Origin: Streptomyces sp. NBC_01262
GTDB lineage: Bacteria; Actinomycetota; Actinomycetes; Streptomycetales; Streptomycetaceae
NCBI RefSeq assembly: GCF_036226365.1
Contig: NZ_CP108462.1
Span: 5,082,501-5,146,500, forward strand
DNA length: 64,000 nt
Direction of reading: 5' to 3'
Within the stretch, counting starts at the first letter, position 1. Each line of letters starts with the position of its first letter. Made by a program: the position numbers and the translations under genes. The notes below the pieces were generated by a model. The model saw nothing but the letters and a program-made list of their open reading frames with translations. It made no database searches and was not told the origin of the DNA. Below, piece after piece: positions 3,703-64,000 of this stretch.

Positions 3703-4953
3703 TCAGCTCGCGATGGGGAGGAGCTGTGTGGCGGTTTCCGTGGGCGTGTGGCGGGTGTCTGTGGCGCTATCCGCCACAGATTCACCCCCTCTGACCTGGG
3801 GTGTGGCGGACGTTGCGGCTGTTGCGGATTTCTCAGCGGGCGGAGGGCAGTAACGGGTCCACGCGTCCGTGAGGTCGTCCGCGTAGTAGCCCTTCGGGGT
3901 GCCCGAGGAGGTGCGGATACCGCGCGGCTTGATGGGCTTGTTGCCGGGGGTGACGTACTGCCCGAGCAGCTTGGACAGGGTGCGGGAGGTGAGCGGCTTG
4001 TCGTCCAGGTCGCCCCAGGGCGCGTCATCCATGCCCAGGAGGCATTCGAGGATGACGGCGGTGGGCATGCGGTCGGCTCCGCAGAACACGGTGTCGCGCA
4101 GGTCGGTCAGCAGGCGGACGCCGAGGGATGCTTCGTCGTTCTCGTGCGCTGCCTGGATCAGTTCCAGGCAGGCGGCGCGGGCACGGGCGGGCCAGTGTCC
4201 GCCGGCCGCGTCGGCGACGGCGAGCAGGGGTTCCCACACGTCCGCCGGTCGGTCGCTGACGCCCTCGGGCATCTCGGGCCAGGCGGCGGCGACCTGGTCA
4301 TGGACGGTGTCGGCCCAGGTGGCGAGCCTGTCGCGCAGGGCGTGGCCCTGCTGCTCGTGGATGCGTCGGCGGTAGGGCTCGACCTTCTCGTTGGGGGCGC
4401 GTTTGCGCATGCGGATGATGACGGAGCGGGTCAGGATCGTGTCGGGCAGGGAACCGAGCCCGGCCATGGCGACGGCGCAGAACGACGAGAACCATGCGGC
4501 GGTCTGGTTGTTGCCGCCGTCGCTGACGCAGCGCAGTGACTTGCCGCCGCGCCGGTATCCGGAGTTCAGGAACCCGCGTACGAGTTCGTCCCCTCCCGCC
4601 TTGGGACCGAACACGGTGTCGATCTCGTCAAACAGGAGGGTCGGAATTCCCTCGGGGGCTTCGACCAGCCGGAAGAGAGCATTGGCGGATGCGTTGACCG
4701 TGGTCGCGGCGCGGGGCGTGAGAGTTTCGATGATTTCCAGGGCGCGGGACTTGCCCGAGCCAGGCTCGGGGGACAGGAACGCGATGCGGGCGGTCCCGTC
4801 GAACGCGTCGATGAGGTGGGCGTGCGCGTCCCACAGGGTCACGGCGACGTAGGCGGCTTCCCTCGGGAAGATGTTGAAACGGCGGTGGAAAGCCTCCACC
4901 TCGTCCAGCAGGGCGGCGCCGTTCACTCCGGCGTGCTGCTCGGTTTGGGTCAT
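3703..4953 (-). CDS. DUF3631 P-loop ATPase, AICE replication module
   Basis: A 416-residue protein with a P-loop near residue 60 (PEPGSGKSRALE), Walker B LLFDEID about 50 residues later, and a C-terminal DUF3631 region (YYADDLTDAWTRY). Such ATPases accompany prim-pol proteins on actinobacterial plasmids and AICEs and probably act as the replicative helicase or initiator partner. Its ATG overlaps the upstream stop by 4 bases, and two genes upstream is the prim-pol gene, so translation looks coupled. The last 40 residues are low-complexity and overlap the repeat-rich DNA described at 3541-3702. Confidence 0.85.
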   Translation of the reverse strand: MTQTEQHAGVNGAALLDEVEAFHRRFNIFPREAAYVAVTLWDAHAHLIDAFDGTARIAFLSPEPGSGKSRALEIIETLTPRAATTVNASANALFRLVEAPEGIPTLLFDEIDTVFGPKAGGDELVRGFLNSGYRRGGKSLRCVSDGGNNQTAAWFSSFCAVAMAGLGSLPDTILTRSVIIRMRKRAPNEKVEPYRRRIHEQQGHALRDRLATWADTVHDQVAAAWPEMPEGVSDRPADVWEPLLAVADAAGGHWPARARAACLELIQAAHENDEASLGVRLLTDLRDTVFCGADRMPTAVILECLLGMDDAPWGDLDDKPLTSRTLSKLLGQYVTPGNKPIKPRGIRTSSGTPKGYYADDLTDAWTRYCPPPAEKSATAATSATPQVRGGESVADSATDTRHTPTETATQLLPIAS

Positions 4954-58450: not shown

Positions 58451-58535
58451 GGAGGATTCGCCTAGTGGCCTAGGGCGCACGCTTGGAAAGCGTGTTGGGG
58501 GCAACCCCTCACGAGTTCGAATCTCGTATCCTCCG
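58451..58535 (+). tRNA. tRNA-Ser (anticodon GGA)
   Basis: Acceptor GGAGGAT pairs with ATCCTCC, discriminator G; anticodon loop TTGGAAA gives GGA; long variable arm; T arm ACGAGTTCGAATCTCGT. Its 3' end is the likely attachment site of the integrase gene that follows. Confidence 0.96.
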
Positions 58536-58553
58536 CACCGGCTGACCAGCCAA

Positions 58554-58657: not shown

Positions 58658-59893
58658 TCAGCCGTGACGCTCGGTCGGCCAGAGCAGGCCGCCGACCTTG
58701 TCGGCGGTGTCGCGGAGGACGCGGCCGGTGAGGTGCTGGTAGCGGCGGCGCATCCGGGCGGACTTGCCAGGCTCCCAGCCCATGATCGCGTCGACCACGA
58801 CGTCGGCAACGCCGAGGATCAGCAGGACCGTTCCTGCGGTGTGGCGGGCGTCGTGCAGTCGGCCGTCGCGGACCCCAGCGGACTTGAGCAGCTTTTTCCA
58901 GTTGTGGTAATCGGTGTTGGGATTGAGGGCCTCGCCGGTTGGTGAGGTGAAGACGTATCCGTTGTCCGTCCACAGGTCCCGGGCGGTGGCTCGCTCGCGC
59001 GCCTGCTCGGCCTTGTGCTCCTTGAGCAGCTTCAGCAGTTCCTCGGGCAGGCCGATCGGCCGCTTGCCCGCTCGGGACTTGGTGTCTTTGGTCTCGCGGC
59101 GGATGTTGATCTTCTGCGGGCAGTAGCCGGGCTTGCGTCCGCACGAGCCGCCGCAGCCGTGGTCGTACCTCGGCCGTAGCCGTCCGCGCTGGACGCGGAT
59201 CACGCCGGACTTCAGATCGACGTCCGTCCACTTCAGGCCGAGTACCTCGCCCTGGCGGAGGCCGAGGGCCAGGGCGATGACCCAGCGGGCGGCGTTGCGC
59301 TGCCGCCCGGCTTCGAGGAGGAGGCTCTGCACCTCCTCGACCGAGTAGGGCTCGACCTCCTCCTCTTCGACGCGGGGTGCCTTGGCGATCGAGGCCGGGT
59401 TGACGGTGAGGTGGCGGCGGCGGATCGCCTCGTTGAGGGCGGCGCGGACGGTGCGGTGGGCTTGGTGGGCGGTGCCAGCGGCGCTGCCGGTGTCCTGCAT
59501 TTTCTTGTAGAAGCGCTCCAGGTGCTCGGGCTCCAGCTTCTCCAGGCGGTGGGCACCGAGGCCGGGAATGAGGTGGTGGTAGACCGCGACGCGGTAGCCG
59601 TCGATCGTGTTCTCGGAGACGGACGGGGCGGCGATGTTCTCGACCCAGTGGGTGAGCCAGGTCTCGACGGTCCAGCGCTGACCGGCCTTGCGGACGGTGC
59701 CGGAGTCGCGCAGCCGCTCCAGTTCACGGACGACCTTGGTGACCTCGGCGCGGGTCTTCCTGGACACGTGACGGCGGTCAGGGGTTCCGTCGTCCTTCAC
59801 GCCGACGGTGACCCGGCCGTGCCAGCGACCGTCGCTGGCTTGGTAGATGGTGGATGCGCCGTTGGGCTGGCGCGAGTCGCGCTTCTTGGCCAT
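58658..59893 (-). CDS. int: tyrosine integrase of a second element
   Basis: 411 residues. N-terminal arm-binding domain (GRWHGRVTVGVKDDGTPDRRHVSRKTRAEV), SAM-like core-binding domain, and catalytic residues Arg in LALGLRQGEVLGLKW, His-Arg in LHDARHTAG and Tyr in RRRYQHLTG. A zinc-like insert CGGSCGRKPGYC is present. ATG 59893 is chosen from the conserved MAKKRDSRQPNG start. It is next to the tRNA as in tRNA-integrating elements. Confidence 0.94.
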   Translation of the reverse strand: MAKKRDSRQPNGASTIYQASDGRWHGRVTVGVKDDGTPDRRHVSRKTRAEVTKVVRELERLRDSGTVRKAGQRWTVETWLTHWVENIAAPSVSENTIDGYRVAVYHHLIPGLGAHRLEKLEPEHLERFYKKMQDTGSAAGTAHQAHRTVRAALNEAIRRRHLTVNPASIAKAPRVEEEEVEPYSVEEVQSLLLEAGRQRNAARWVIALALGLRQGEVLGLKWTDVDLKSGVIRVQRGRLRPRYDHGCGGSCGRKPGYCPQKINIRRETKDTKSRAGKRPIGLPEELLKLLKEHKAEQARERATARDLWTDNGYVFTSPTGEALNPNTDYHNWKKLLKSAGVRDGRLHDARHTAGTVLLILGVADVVVDAIMGWEPGKSARMRRRYQHLTGRVLRDTADKVGGLLWPTERHG

Positions 59894-59904: not shown

Positions 59905-60204
59905 TCAGGCCGCGGTGGTGAAGTCGGCGGCGGTGAGGCGCTTGGCGAGGAAGTCGCGCACGGCCTCGGCGGGTATTCGGCGCAGGCGGCCGATCGTGAC
60001 GGACGGGATCTCGCCGGAGGAGACGTACTCGTACATCTTGGTGCGGCCGATGCCGATGCGGCGGGCGGCTTCCTCGACGGTGAGCGCGACGAGGGTCGGA
60101 TCGCCTGGCGCGTCGCCTCGCTTGGCCATGAGGGTGAGGAGGTCGTCCTCGGCGATGCCGAGGAGGTGGGCGATCTGGGAGATGGGCAGGGGGTGCTGGG
60201 GCAA
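59905..60204 (-). CDS. xis: excisionase-type helix-turn-helix protein
   Basis: 99 residues: a helical N-terminal part and a C-terminal MerR-like excisionase domain (LTVEEAARRIGIGRTKMYEYVSSGEIPSVTIGRLRRIPAEAVRDFLAKR). It lies 11 bases upstream of int and should direct excision of the second element. Confidence 0.9.
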   Translation of the reverse strand: MPQHPLPISQIAHLLGIAEDDLLTLMAKRGDAPGDPTLVALTVEEAARRIGIGRTKMYEYVSSGEIPSVTIGRLRRIPAEAVRDFLAKRLTAADFTTAA

Positions 60205-61558: not shown

Positions 61559-62035
61559 TCAGCTCTGCGGGGTGTCCCAGTAGTCCGCGAGCATCTCGCC
61601 TGGCCAGCTGGGCTCGCATATCTTGCCGCGTGGGCCCATCTCCCGGAAGTAGGGGGCGAGGTCGTAGACCGGGCTTCCGTCGATCGCGTCCAGATCGGTG
61701 ACGTGGAGGTCCAGGCCGTCGACCTTGAGCAGGCGGGGGAAGGACTGGGCGAGCTGGTTCGGGCGGCGGTGGTTGCGGTGGACGAAGGTGCCGGTGGTCG
61801 GCCATTGGGGGTTGTTGCGGGGGCTGCGGGCGTGCAGTGCGACGTCATCGGGGGAGGCCTTGTGGAAGTGCCAGACGACGAGCAGGTGGGAGAACTCCTC
61901 CAGGCCCTGGACCACCTCGGCAGGGAAGTCCGGGTTCAGGCGGATGATGGCCGTGCCGGTCCAGTGGTCGTCGGTGGGCTCGGTTCGTCCGCTGACCACG
62001 GTGCCGATGGGCTTGATCTCCAGCGACTTCGACAT
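61559..62035 (-). CDS. TrmO/TsaA-like methyltransferase
   Basis: 158 residues, TrmO (UPF0066) fold: IKPIGTVVSG at the N terminus, GLEEFSHLLVVWHFHKA, HARSPRNNPQWPTTGTFVHRNHRRPNQL and VDGLDLHVTDLDAIDGSPVYDLAPYF. TrmO methylates t6A37 of some tRNAs using SAM. ATG 62035 follows GGAAAGGGAG. Here it may also be an accessory of the RiPP-like locus downstream of which it lies. Confidence 0.88.
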   Translation of the reverse strand: MSKSLEIKPIGTVVSGRTEPTDDHWTGTAIIRLNPDFPAEVVQGLEEFSHLLVVWHFHKASPDDVALHARSPRNNPQWPTTGTFVHRNHRRPNQLAQSFPRLLKVDGLDLHVTDLDAIDGSPVYDLAPYFREMGPRGKICEPSWPGEMLADYWDTPQS

Positions 62036-62135
62036 GCGCTCCCTTTCCAGAACAGTCCTGGCCATCGGCCGGTGTATTCACCCTGCCAGCGGTCGATGGC
62101 CGAGGCGCAGCGAGCCTGCACGTCGGCCGCCGTCT

Positions 62136-63011
62136 CTAGCGGACTGGCGATGAACAAATGAAGCCTAGGGAGCGGAGTCCTTCGGACTGGCACAAGCGGT
62201 CGGAGGCTCCGCCGACCTCGGTCTGAAGCAACTGATAGGCGGCGCCGTGGGTCTTTCCCCAGCTCATGGCAGCCCTCCACAACAGGCGTCCAAATCCGTG
62301 GCCTCGGTGTTCCGGCAGTACGCCGAAATACTGAGGCATGAGCTGGGCGGCACCCACGGCGTCCGGCCTATTTTCCATCGGGCCGATCGCGCCCGCCACG
62401 CGACCGTCTGCAACGGCAACGAGCACCGGCCCGACGGTGCCGGCCTGCATGCAACTGTGGAGGAACGCGAAGCCGTCAGCGGCCATCCGCTCGGCGAAGT
62501 CACCGAACGTACGCCGCACCCCCGCAGCGCAGTGACCAAAGTCCAGCACAGGACCGTCAGCCAGCGGAGACGGCATCCCGGCGAAGTCCTTGAGCTGGAT
62601 GCGGGTTCCTCGCATCTGGCGGGCTGGATGCTCCGGTCCCGCGAACCAGACCACACGGGCCTTCGCCGCGTTATGAACAGCGCAGAGCTTCAGTGCCAGC
62701 TCTTCGGCACTCCAACGGCTGTCCGGTGCCGCTCCGTAGACGTGGACCTTCACGGTGCCCGAGCCGCGCCGCAGGAGGGTGGGGATCAGGGTCTCGCCCA
62801 GCCGATGCACGACGTCCTCGACGAGGACTCTTTCGTCCTTGGCGTCGGACCAGCGAAGGTCCTTGTCGTACCGAAGGAACCGCTCGGTCGGCGCGGCGAT
62901 CAAGGTGTCCGTGAAGAGGTCCTCGGTGAGCACCGAAGGGTGCACCGGGCCGATGGTCGGGACGAAGGGAACCGTCACCACTGGGCGTAGCCAGTCCCAA
63001 CGGAATCGCAT
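62136..63011 (-). CDS. GNAT-family N-acetyltransferase
   Basis: 291 residues: an unassigned N-terminal half (about 1-130) and a C-terminal GNAT domain with LVAVADGRVAGAIGPMEN and the acetyl-CoA site PQYFGVLPEHRGHGFGRLLWRAA. It starts 87 bases after the stop of the candidate precursor and so is probably co-transcribed with it. It could acetylate the peptide or confer self-protection. Confidence 0.85.
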   Translation of the reverse strand: MRFRWDWLRPVVTVPFVPTIGPVHPSVLTEDLFTDTLIAAPTERFLRYDKDLRWSDAKDERVLVEDVVHRLGETLIPTLLRRGSGTVKVHVYGAAPDSRWSAEELALKLCAVHNAAKARVVWFAGPEHPARQMRGTRIQLKDFAGMPSPLADGPVLDFGHCAAGVRRTFGDFAERMAADGFAFLHSCMQAGTVGPVLVAVADGRVAGAIGPMENRPDAVGAAQLMPQYFGVLPEHRGHGFGRLLWRAAMSWGKTHGAAYQLLQTEVGGASDRLCQSEGLRSLGFICSSPVR

Positions 63012-63098
63012 GACGGCACCTTACTCACCTCCCACACGTGGTGCAGGCCCCGGCGCGGAATGCGTCGAGGCCTGCACGATATTGATCGTCTGCGCTGG

Positions 63099-63266
63099 TC
63101 AGTGGGGGTTGTCGTCGCTGCCCGAGCAGGAGCAGGCGATGCCGCTCATCAGGTCGTCCAGGTCGCGCACGATGGCGACGGCCGGTGTGGCGACGAGGTG
63201 GTCGGGCAGTTCGGGCCGTGTCCTGGGCGATGGGGTCCTCTGGATGGTCACTGCTACTGCGGTCAT
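63099..63266 (-). CDS. candidate RiPP precursor peptide
   Basis: 55 residues. Leader-like N terminus (TAVAVTIQRTPSPRTRPELPDHLVATPAVAIVRDLDDLMSG) and a short C terminus ACSCSGSDDNPH with two Cys. The ATG overlaps the stop of the radical SAM/SPASM gene (ATGA), so enzyme and peptide are translationally coupled. Size, acidic DLDDL stretch before a small Cys/Ser core, and gene context fit a ribosomally made, radical-modified peptide. No known family is recognised. Confidence 0.68.
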   Translation of the reverse strand: MTAVAVTIQRTPSPRTRPELPDHLVATPAVAIVRDLDDLMSGIACSCSGSDDNPH

Positions 63267-64000
63267 GCGTTCACCGTTTCCTTCCGGAGTTGGCCGTGCT
63301 GGCAGTAGTTCTGCAGTGGAGCCCTCGCCTCCTGGAACTGCTTGGCCAGTGGCCGGCACACCAGGCACGAGCCGGACAGCTGGCAGCCGGAGCAGCCCCC
63401 GGTGCGAAGCATCAACTTGTCCGCGACGCCGGGAAGGCGGCGCAGCCCTTCGAGGCCTTCGGCCATGAGGTCGATCTGATCGTCCCTGCCGACCTTGCAG
63501 ATGCTGACCTTGGCGTGCGGGTCGGCGTGGAAGAAGGTGTGGCCGGCGTTGCAGCCCGCGAACGGCGTACGTTCGCGCAGGTGCTTGCTGGACTGGGCGA
63601 GCAGGGATTCCGGTCCGCCATAGATCGTCGGCGTCATGTTCGTGTAGATGTGGTGCCGCAGGCCCCAGTCCTCGGCCATGGCGGCCATGGCGTCGATCTC
63701 GTGGGCGCTGTCCTCGGTCACCACGATGTTCAGCCGCACGGGGAGCCGGGCTTCACGTGCCGCCGCCATGCCGCGCTGGAAGGTCTTCCACGAGCCCCTG
63801 CGCTGCGTGAGCCCGTCGAAGCTCGCCTCGGTGGCCCCGTAGACGCTGACGACGAGCCGGTAGGCGGGGCACTCCTCGAACATCGCCAGGAGCGAGGTCT
63901 CCCACAGCCGGGAGGCGTTGGTGGAGACGGTGAGCATCATGCCCAGCGAGGCGGCGTAGCGGTAGGCGTCTGGGAAGTGCTTGTCGATCGTCGGCTCACC
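63263..64000 (-). CDS. radical SAM/SPASM maturase (5' part beyond the window)
   Basis: 246 codons visible, open at the window edge. GEPTIDKHFPDAYRYAASLG matches the GGEP strand of radical SAM barrels; TVSTNASRL and RLVVSVYGATEASFDGLT follow. The C-terminal SPASM region has seven Cys in the usual pattern (CNAGHTFF ... SICKVG, GGCSGCQLSGSCLVC, NYCQHG), for auxiliary iron-sulphur clusters. The CxxxCxxC motif lies outside the window. Presumed to modify the peptide encoded at 63099. Confidence 0.88.
   Translation of the reverse strand, partial: GEPTIDKHFPDAYRYAASLGMMLTVSTNASRLWETSLLAMFEECPAYRLVVSVYGATEASFDGLTQRRGSWKTFQRGMAAAREARLPVRLNIVVTEDSAHEIDAMAAMAEDWGLRHHIYTNMTPTIYGGPESLLAQSSKHLRERTPFAGCNAGHTFFHADPHAKVSICKVGRDDQIDLMAEGLEGLRRLPGVADKLMLRTGGCSGCQLSGSCLVCRPLAKQFQEARAPLQNYCQHGQLRKETVNA

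Follow-up and report, generated by a model that had tools for sequence, protein, structure and literature searches.

What is a gene of only 55 codons doing between a radical SAM enzyme and an acyltransferase on a Streptomyces contig? The window, the whole stretch of 64,000 nucleotides analysed here, represents positions 5082501-5146500 of a single 9.74-Mb contig; a position in the adjoining DNA (L009) becomes a window coordinate on addition of 59500. A first-pass annotation had placed a radical SAM gene, a peptide gene and a GNAT gene next to one another on the minus strand and read them as a leader-guided radical SAM/SPASM RiPP cassette. We confirm the arrangement (Table 1), and the reading gains support from the many genomes in which homologous peptides adjoin homologous SPASM genes. 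What the analysis establishes is a cassette of precursor, enzyme and transferase that is conserved and mobile and includes an RRE-like domain, the fold of which is assigned by structure prediction. We consider it probable, at roughly 60%, that the three genes form a mobile RiPP cassette of Actinomycetota in which an RRE-bearing enzyme modifies the adjacent peptide and a third enzyme acylates or phosphorylates it. Judged by architecture, this is a radical SAM RiPP family, apparently new to curated libraries and undescribed in the open literature searched.

Three genes and a family of conserved tails

Table 1. Positions of the cassette genes, of the features of their island and of a phage-borne cassette, in window coordinates unless stated otherwise.
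Feature	Position	Strand	Basis
Radical SAM/SPASM maturase gene, 3' part	63263..64000 and beyond the window	-	PF04055, full translation, family alignment
Precursor peptide gene, 55 codons	63099..63266	-	Homologues adjoining 81/85 related enzymes
Tandem GNAT acyltransferase, 291 codons	62136..63011	-	PF00583 over cut-off; predicted structure; family conservation
Excisionase-like HTH_17 protein of the island	59905..60204	-	PF12728, 55.5 bits
Tyrosine integrase of the island	58661..59893	-	PF00589, 62.5 bits
tRNA-Ser (GGA), presumed attachment site	58451..58536	+	ARAGORN; direct repeats
Repeats of the tRNA-Ser 3' end (58483-58536)	80618-80753 and 83586-83638 (window-equivalent)		
Complete cassette of Streptomyces phage Success	NC_073472 266-2380; locus L145 7800-9914		

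The radical SAM gene runs past the window and extends in L009 to about position 4930 (window-equivalent about 64430); in a profile search, the translation of the whole open frame of the window's gene matches PF04055. Its stop overlaps the ATG of the peptide gene by 4 bp (ATGA), and the GNAT gene follows about 90 bp past the peptide gene. The peptide reads MTAVAVTIQRTPSPRTRPELPDHLVATPAVAIVRDLDDLMSGIACSCSGSDDNPH, with ACSCSGSDDNPH as its core, and the corresponding peptide of a same-genus genome (G009) is 52% identical to it. After the GNAT gene, on the same strand, comes a TrmO-type gene (61559-62065; TrmO_N 78.7 bits, TIGR00104 under cut-off), which is not a conserved neighbour of the cassette at other loci.

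Is the enzyme gene of this strain intact? Its first usable start, a GTG, gives a protein of only 309 aa, where relatives have about 370, and the frame continues open upstream of the GTG, 381 codons in total. The first ~30 codons expected of the enzyme (VVHEVVVSPFLDGYLAVRPGSEAGIR) are present, but in a different frame, and alignment with a relative (L079) reveals a 1-base deletion at about window coordinate 64318. The deletion may be a mutation or an assembly error, and because of it the gene may be inactive in the window's strain. Broken copies are common in the family, among them L035, L076, a copy in Streptantibioticus cattleyicolor and several in same-genus or same-family genomes.

Does the peptide belong to the enzyme? 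The first homologues came from Streptomyces plasmids and from Nonomuraea. A total of 276 relatives were then found in GTDB genomes, 80 loci of these were retrieved, and 85 loci were examined for the peptide. The loci come from Streptomyces, Kitasatospora, Amycolatopsis, Saccharopolyspora, Lentzea, Glycomyces, Frankia, Nocardiopsis, Actinomadura and others. In 81 of the 85, a peptide of 41-74 residues with the tail C..D-[NQVA]-P-[HYF] lies directly downstream of the related radical SAM gene, so that a precursor gene is linked to a modifying enzyme across genomes, as is the case for RiPPs; in 43 of the loci examined, a 4-bp overlap with the enzyme gene marks the peptide start. Elsewhere, the tail pattern occurs once in 1.06 Mb on both strands, and therefore the association of peptide and enzyme is beyond chance. 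The first-pass annotation had named two observations that would count against its reading, namely a missing CxxxCxxC motif and a lack of homologous peptides next to related SPASM genes. Neither counts against it, since extension past the window uncovers the motif (GCKFACKHC, in L009) along with SPASM cysteines, and such peptides do adjoin related SPASM genes. The four loci without a standard tail peptide comprise a truncated gene (L041), a deletion joining enzyme to GNAT (L043), a tail whose stop was lost (L073) and a Pro-to-Val variant, CSCTASDDQVY (L106).

The precursors share a layout. A short motif at the N-terminus (often MTAVxVxI) is followed by a variable linker, which leads to a hydrophobic-V-x-D-[LVM]-[DE] motif and then to the core; the D of this second motif is placed exactly 10 residues ahead of the first Cys in 71 of 84. 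Variation in the codons of the conserved core is mostly synonymous. Two core types occur: CSCx(A/S)(G/S)DDxP[HYF], with Cys-X3-Asp, and a single-Cys type resembling GCG[ED]DNPYN, with Cys-X2-Asp. Every core contains one of these two spacings, that is, the Cys and spaced acceptor looked for in ranthipeptides and sactipeptides. The last aromatic residue and the Pro preceding it are nearly invariant and stand at the C-terminus or one residue from it, some C-termini carrying one extra residue (PYN, PYR, PYS).

The first-pass annotation could place the core in no RiPP class and took it for a new one, which it may be; what is borne out is that curated libraries lack the precursor. No Pfam, NCBIfam or PHROG model covers the window's peptide, and none of the family members tried gave a curated-level match in these three libraries. 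In the open-licence literature, the tail strings DDNPH, DDNPY and EDNPY led to unrelated papers only, and keyword searches turned up no cassette of this kind, although one may have been described in a subscription journal.

The third gene and its mobile setting

What does the third gene contribute? It is fixed in position whether it encodes a GNAT like that of the window, as in most loci, or an APH-type kinase with its HTD-x4-N / DWAW motif intact, as in 26 of the first 87 loci. The initial call of a GNAT gene stands; its N-terminal half, described as unassigned, is by predicted structure a degenerate GNAT domain, because the model (pLDDT 93.8) matches tandem GNATs along its whole length (2wpx, Z 13.7; 1ozp, Z 13.4). 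By sequence, the window's GNAT matched no PDB chain at 1e-3. The acyl-CoA motif RxxGxG in its C-terminal half is invariant in all members, and the enzyme looks catalytically complete. Named aminoglycoside acetyltransferase and phosphotransferase resistance families were rejected because the scores lie far below the NCBIfam cut-offs, the GNAT reaching at most about 18 bits against the resistance models and the kinase exceeding the cut-off of none.

The first-pass annotation thought acetylation of the peptide possible. Given that a kinase takes the place of the GNAT in roughly one locus out of three, however, acetylation does not define the cassette, and it may serve self-protection rather than tailoring. 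Nor are the two enzymes strictly alternatives. Two Amycolatopsis loci carry a GNAT, and in one there is clearly a GNAT and a kinase in a row, with the tandem GNAT and the APH-type kinase of L082 (7380-9078) both downstream of the peptide. We place even odds on the GNAT or kinase acting on the product of the radical SAM enzyme, acylating or phosphorylating it either as a finishing step or for self-protection.

Is the third enzyme matched to the end of the peptide? Among 98 tree rows, the terminal residue is Tyr in 31 of the 31 kinase loci scored, and His in 44, Phe in 7 and Tyr in 3 of the GNAT loci, with classes assigned by motif, a few loci unassigned and one (L103) likely miscalled. On the tree, this link comes down to about four independent switches, two or three of them agreeing and none opposing, and is not significant after correction for kinship. 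The pattern would fit a kinase that needs the Tyr hydroxyl and a GNAT that acts elsewhere, e.g., at the N-terminus of the released core.

How does the cassette spread? We place the window's copy inside an integrative island because further copies of the tRNA-Ser 3' end lie at distances of 22.1 kb (85% over 136 bp) and 25.1 kb (54 nt, one missing); the presence of two such copies on the right-hand side points to tandem or nested elements. The island also holds arsenic-resistance-like genes (L009 8577-20000, window-equivalent 68077-79500), which, read from translations alone, include a thioredoxin reductase, ArsC-type phosphatases, ArsR-type regulators and an aquaporin-like channel. Other cassettes reside on linear and circular plasmids, and tRNA genes are found in the flanks of 22 of 87 loci. 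On two plasmids, the cassette is followed by a second small protein (HPHE...CCQDVGEAT; L025 7142-7654 and L026 4281-4724), the L026 copy of which matches nothing in Pfam or NCBIfam. The cassette enzyme is present on 21 viral contigs, 20 of which also have the peptide. In Streptomyces phage Success, which is propagated on Streptomyces lividans, genes 3, 2 and 1 at the left end of the genome encode the enzyme (annotated as an 'oxidoreductase'), a 38-aa peptide (MNTATTTTEETGTVVLVDDVEALTGDITPGCGDDNPYN) and a kinase. The presence of the whole cassette on this phage raises a question that can be tested, namely why a modified ribosomal peptide should be encoded by a phage at all.

The distribution is patchy, with the cassette in 15 of 35 same-genus genomes (fragments included), 63 of 298 Streptomycetaceae genomes and 2 of 149 genomes drawn thinly and evenly across the phylum, both of them in the window's family. 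Given the patchy presence in genus and family and the many broken copies, a cofactor or housekeeping role was rejected as the most likely explanation. In 41 loci, including the window's, a divergent XRE-type regulator whose C-terminal half is long sits no more than 3.5 kb upstream of the cassette, the regulator clusters being built by single linkage. Only three relatives of the window's regulator, all distant, turn up in its own genome at 1e-8, and the association of the regulator with the cassette is therefore unlikely to reflect chance. No transporter or protease is conserved among the cassette's neighbours, which is the main gap in the RiPP interpretation.

What purpose might the product serve? 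We infer that it may help mobile elements to compete with or exclude one another. It is also conceivable, if unlikely, that the cassette is a toxin-immunity or exclusion module in which the modified peptide harms cells or phages that lack these genes, while carriers are spared through its inactivation by the GNAT or kinase; the chemistry may be the same as in our main reading, the difference being that the third gene would confer immunity instead of tailoring the product. The location on phages, plasmids and islands, the patchy distribution, the frequent broken copies and the interchange of GNAT and kinase all agree with such a module, and both GNAT and APH folds are common solutions to self-resistance. 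Against it, there is no transporter or export signal, GNAT and kinase occur together at an Amycolatopsis locus, and broken enzyme genes beside intact partners are no proof of toxicity. We would hesitate still more to accept an account in which a RiPP family new to the libraries and spread by phages, plasmids and islands pairs one radical SAM-modified peptide with interchangeable tandem GNATs and APH-type kinases matched to the last aromatic residue, with a product for mobile-element competition or exclusion and the third enzyme as immunity.

The radical SAM enzyme and its putative reaction

What reaction could the enzyme of this candidate RiPP cassette perform? Among 38 diverse members, 42 alignment positions are invariant, including C88, C92 and C95 and most SPASM cysteines; the conserved cysteines are 88/92/95, 279, 297, 332, 335, 341, 344 and 362. 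The enzyme thus has both the CX3CX2C motif and the cysteines of a SPASM domain, and the spacings C-X12-G-X4-C and CX2CX5CX2C fit SPASM, although in the latter one gap falls short of the usual length by a residue. The enzyme scores far below the curated cut-off of every named family, scoring 86 bits against 500 for AhbD, 69.9 against 265 for the mycofactocin enzyme MftC and 57.1 against 625 for StsB, which belongs to the sactipeptide streptosactin. Viperin-like defence (pVip) was rejected, as the NCBIfam score is 41.9 bits against a cut-off of 180 and only the radical SAM core is shared; a PADLOC pVip match of 56.8 bits covers that core only.

AlphaFold2 was used to predict the structure (pLDDT 85.2, pTM 0.87) of the enzyme from L079, which shares 72% identity with the window's 309 aa. 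The N-terminal domain of the model has the order beta-beta-beta-helix-helix and is matched in SkfB and SuiB by their RRE region. These two proteins give the two best VIA alignments (Z 22.3 and 22.1, respectively), both starting from residue 1, which supports a built-in RRE-like domain in the enzyme, as modelled; CteB aligns only from residue 75. The structural matches fit makers of thioether (SkfB) and C-C (SuiB) bonds alike.

How might the enzyme engage its peptide? The RRE-like domain would bind the leader at the hydrophobic-V-x-D-[LVM]-[DE] motif, and the tail of the bound peptide would be presented to the SAM-derived radical. PapB links the Cys of CX3D motifs to the Asp and also accepts other spacings (PMC9413430). 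By analogy with it, the enzyme might join the invariant Cys to the downstream Asp by a thioether, a tentative proposal to which we give a little under even odds. Such a thioether would span Cys-X3-Asp in the CSC type and Cys-X2-Asp in the single-Cys type. It would leave the near-constant aromatic C-terminus unaccounted for.

Could that end be the target instead? An MftC-like enzyme would oxidize or decarboxylate the C-terminal residues, or form a C-C link, at Asp/Asn-Pro-[His/Tyr/Phe], yielding a small molecule. The near-invariance of the final aromatic residue and its Pro, at or beside the C-terminus, argues for this, as do the weak similarity to MftC and the kinase-Tyr link, which suggests that the last residue matters. 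However, the Cys is equally invariant, whereas MftC chemistry requires none, and C-termini extended by one residue occur. Moreover, the enzyme scores far under the MftC cut-off, and its conserved neighbours include nothing like MftB, MftE or MftF. We regard MftC-like action as improbable. That the small protein is a regulatory or binding partner of an enzyme acting on a small molecule is very improbable, for although its tail is very uniform for a natural product and no protease is conserved, PQQ and mycofactocin have uniform cores as well, and RiPP precursors are typically built in this way, with a variable linker set apart from a conserved Cys/Asp tail and an RRE-like domain to go with them.

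Read as a RiPP system, the cassette offers a compact, widespread three-gene substrate-enzyme pair for seeking new radical SAM chemistry, because conservation defines the precursor, its likely leader motif and its core, and many strains have intact members.

Comparison with known systems

How does the cassette compare with characterized systems? PapA/PapB, which makes the ranthipeptide freyrasin in Paenibacillus polymyxa, likewise pairs a SPASM enzyme with an adjacent peptide containing Cys-X3-Asp (PMC9413430, PMC10470005). PapA has six Cys/Asp sites, whereas the cassette peptide has one, at the very C-terminus, as well as a second Cys and an aromatic end; the cassette also adds a tandem GNAT or kinase, and its reaction is a putative one. 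No structures match the enzyme model better than SkfB and SuiB, which align with nearly all of it, N-terminal domain included, but the cassette enzyme is only about 12-15% identical to them and reaches no family cut-off. The bonds they form also differ, being a sactionine thioether in SkfB and a C-C link in SuiB.

Mycofactocin's MftA/MftC resembles the cassette in its short precursor with a conserved, aromatic-ended C-terminal core and in having a SPASM enzyme in Actinomycetota. Unlike MftA, the cassette peptide lacks the Val-Tyr end and has an invariant Cys/Asp pair, and no mft partner genes are conserved. Finally, the window's GNAT, at 13-14% identity, shares its predicted two-domain GNAT fold over the full length with 2wpx, from the clavulanic acid cluster, and with the mycothiol synthase MshD (1ozp), and in these proteins, as in the window's, one domain bears the acyl-CoA motif.
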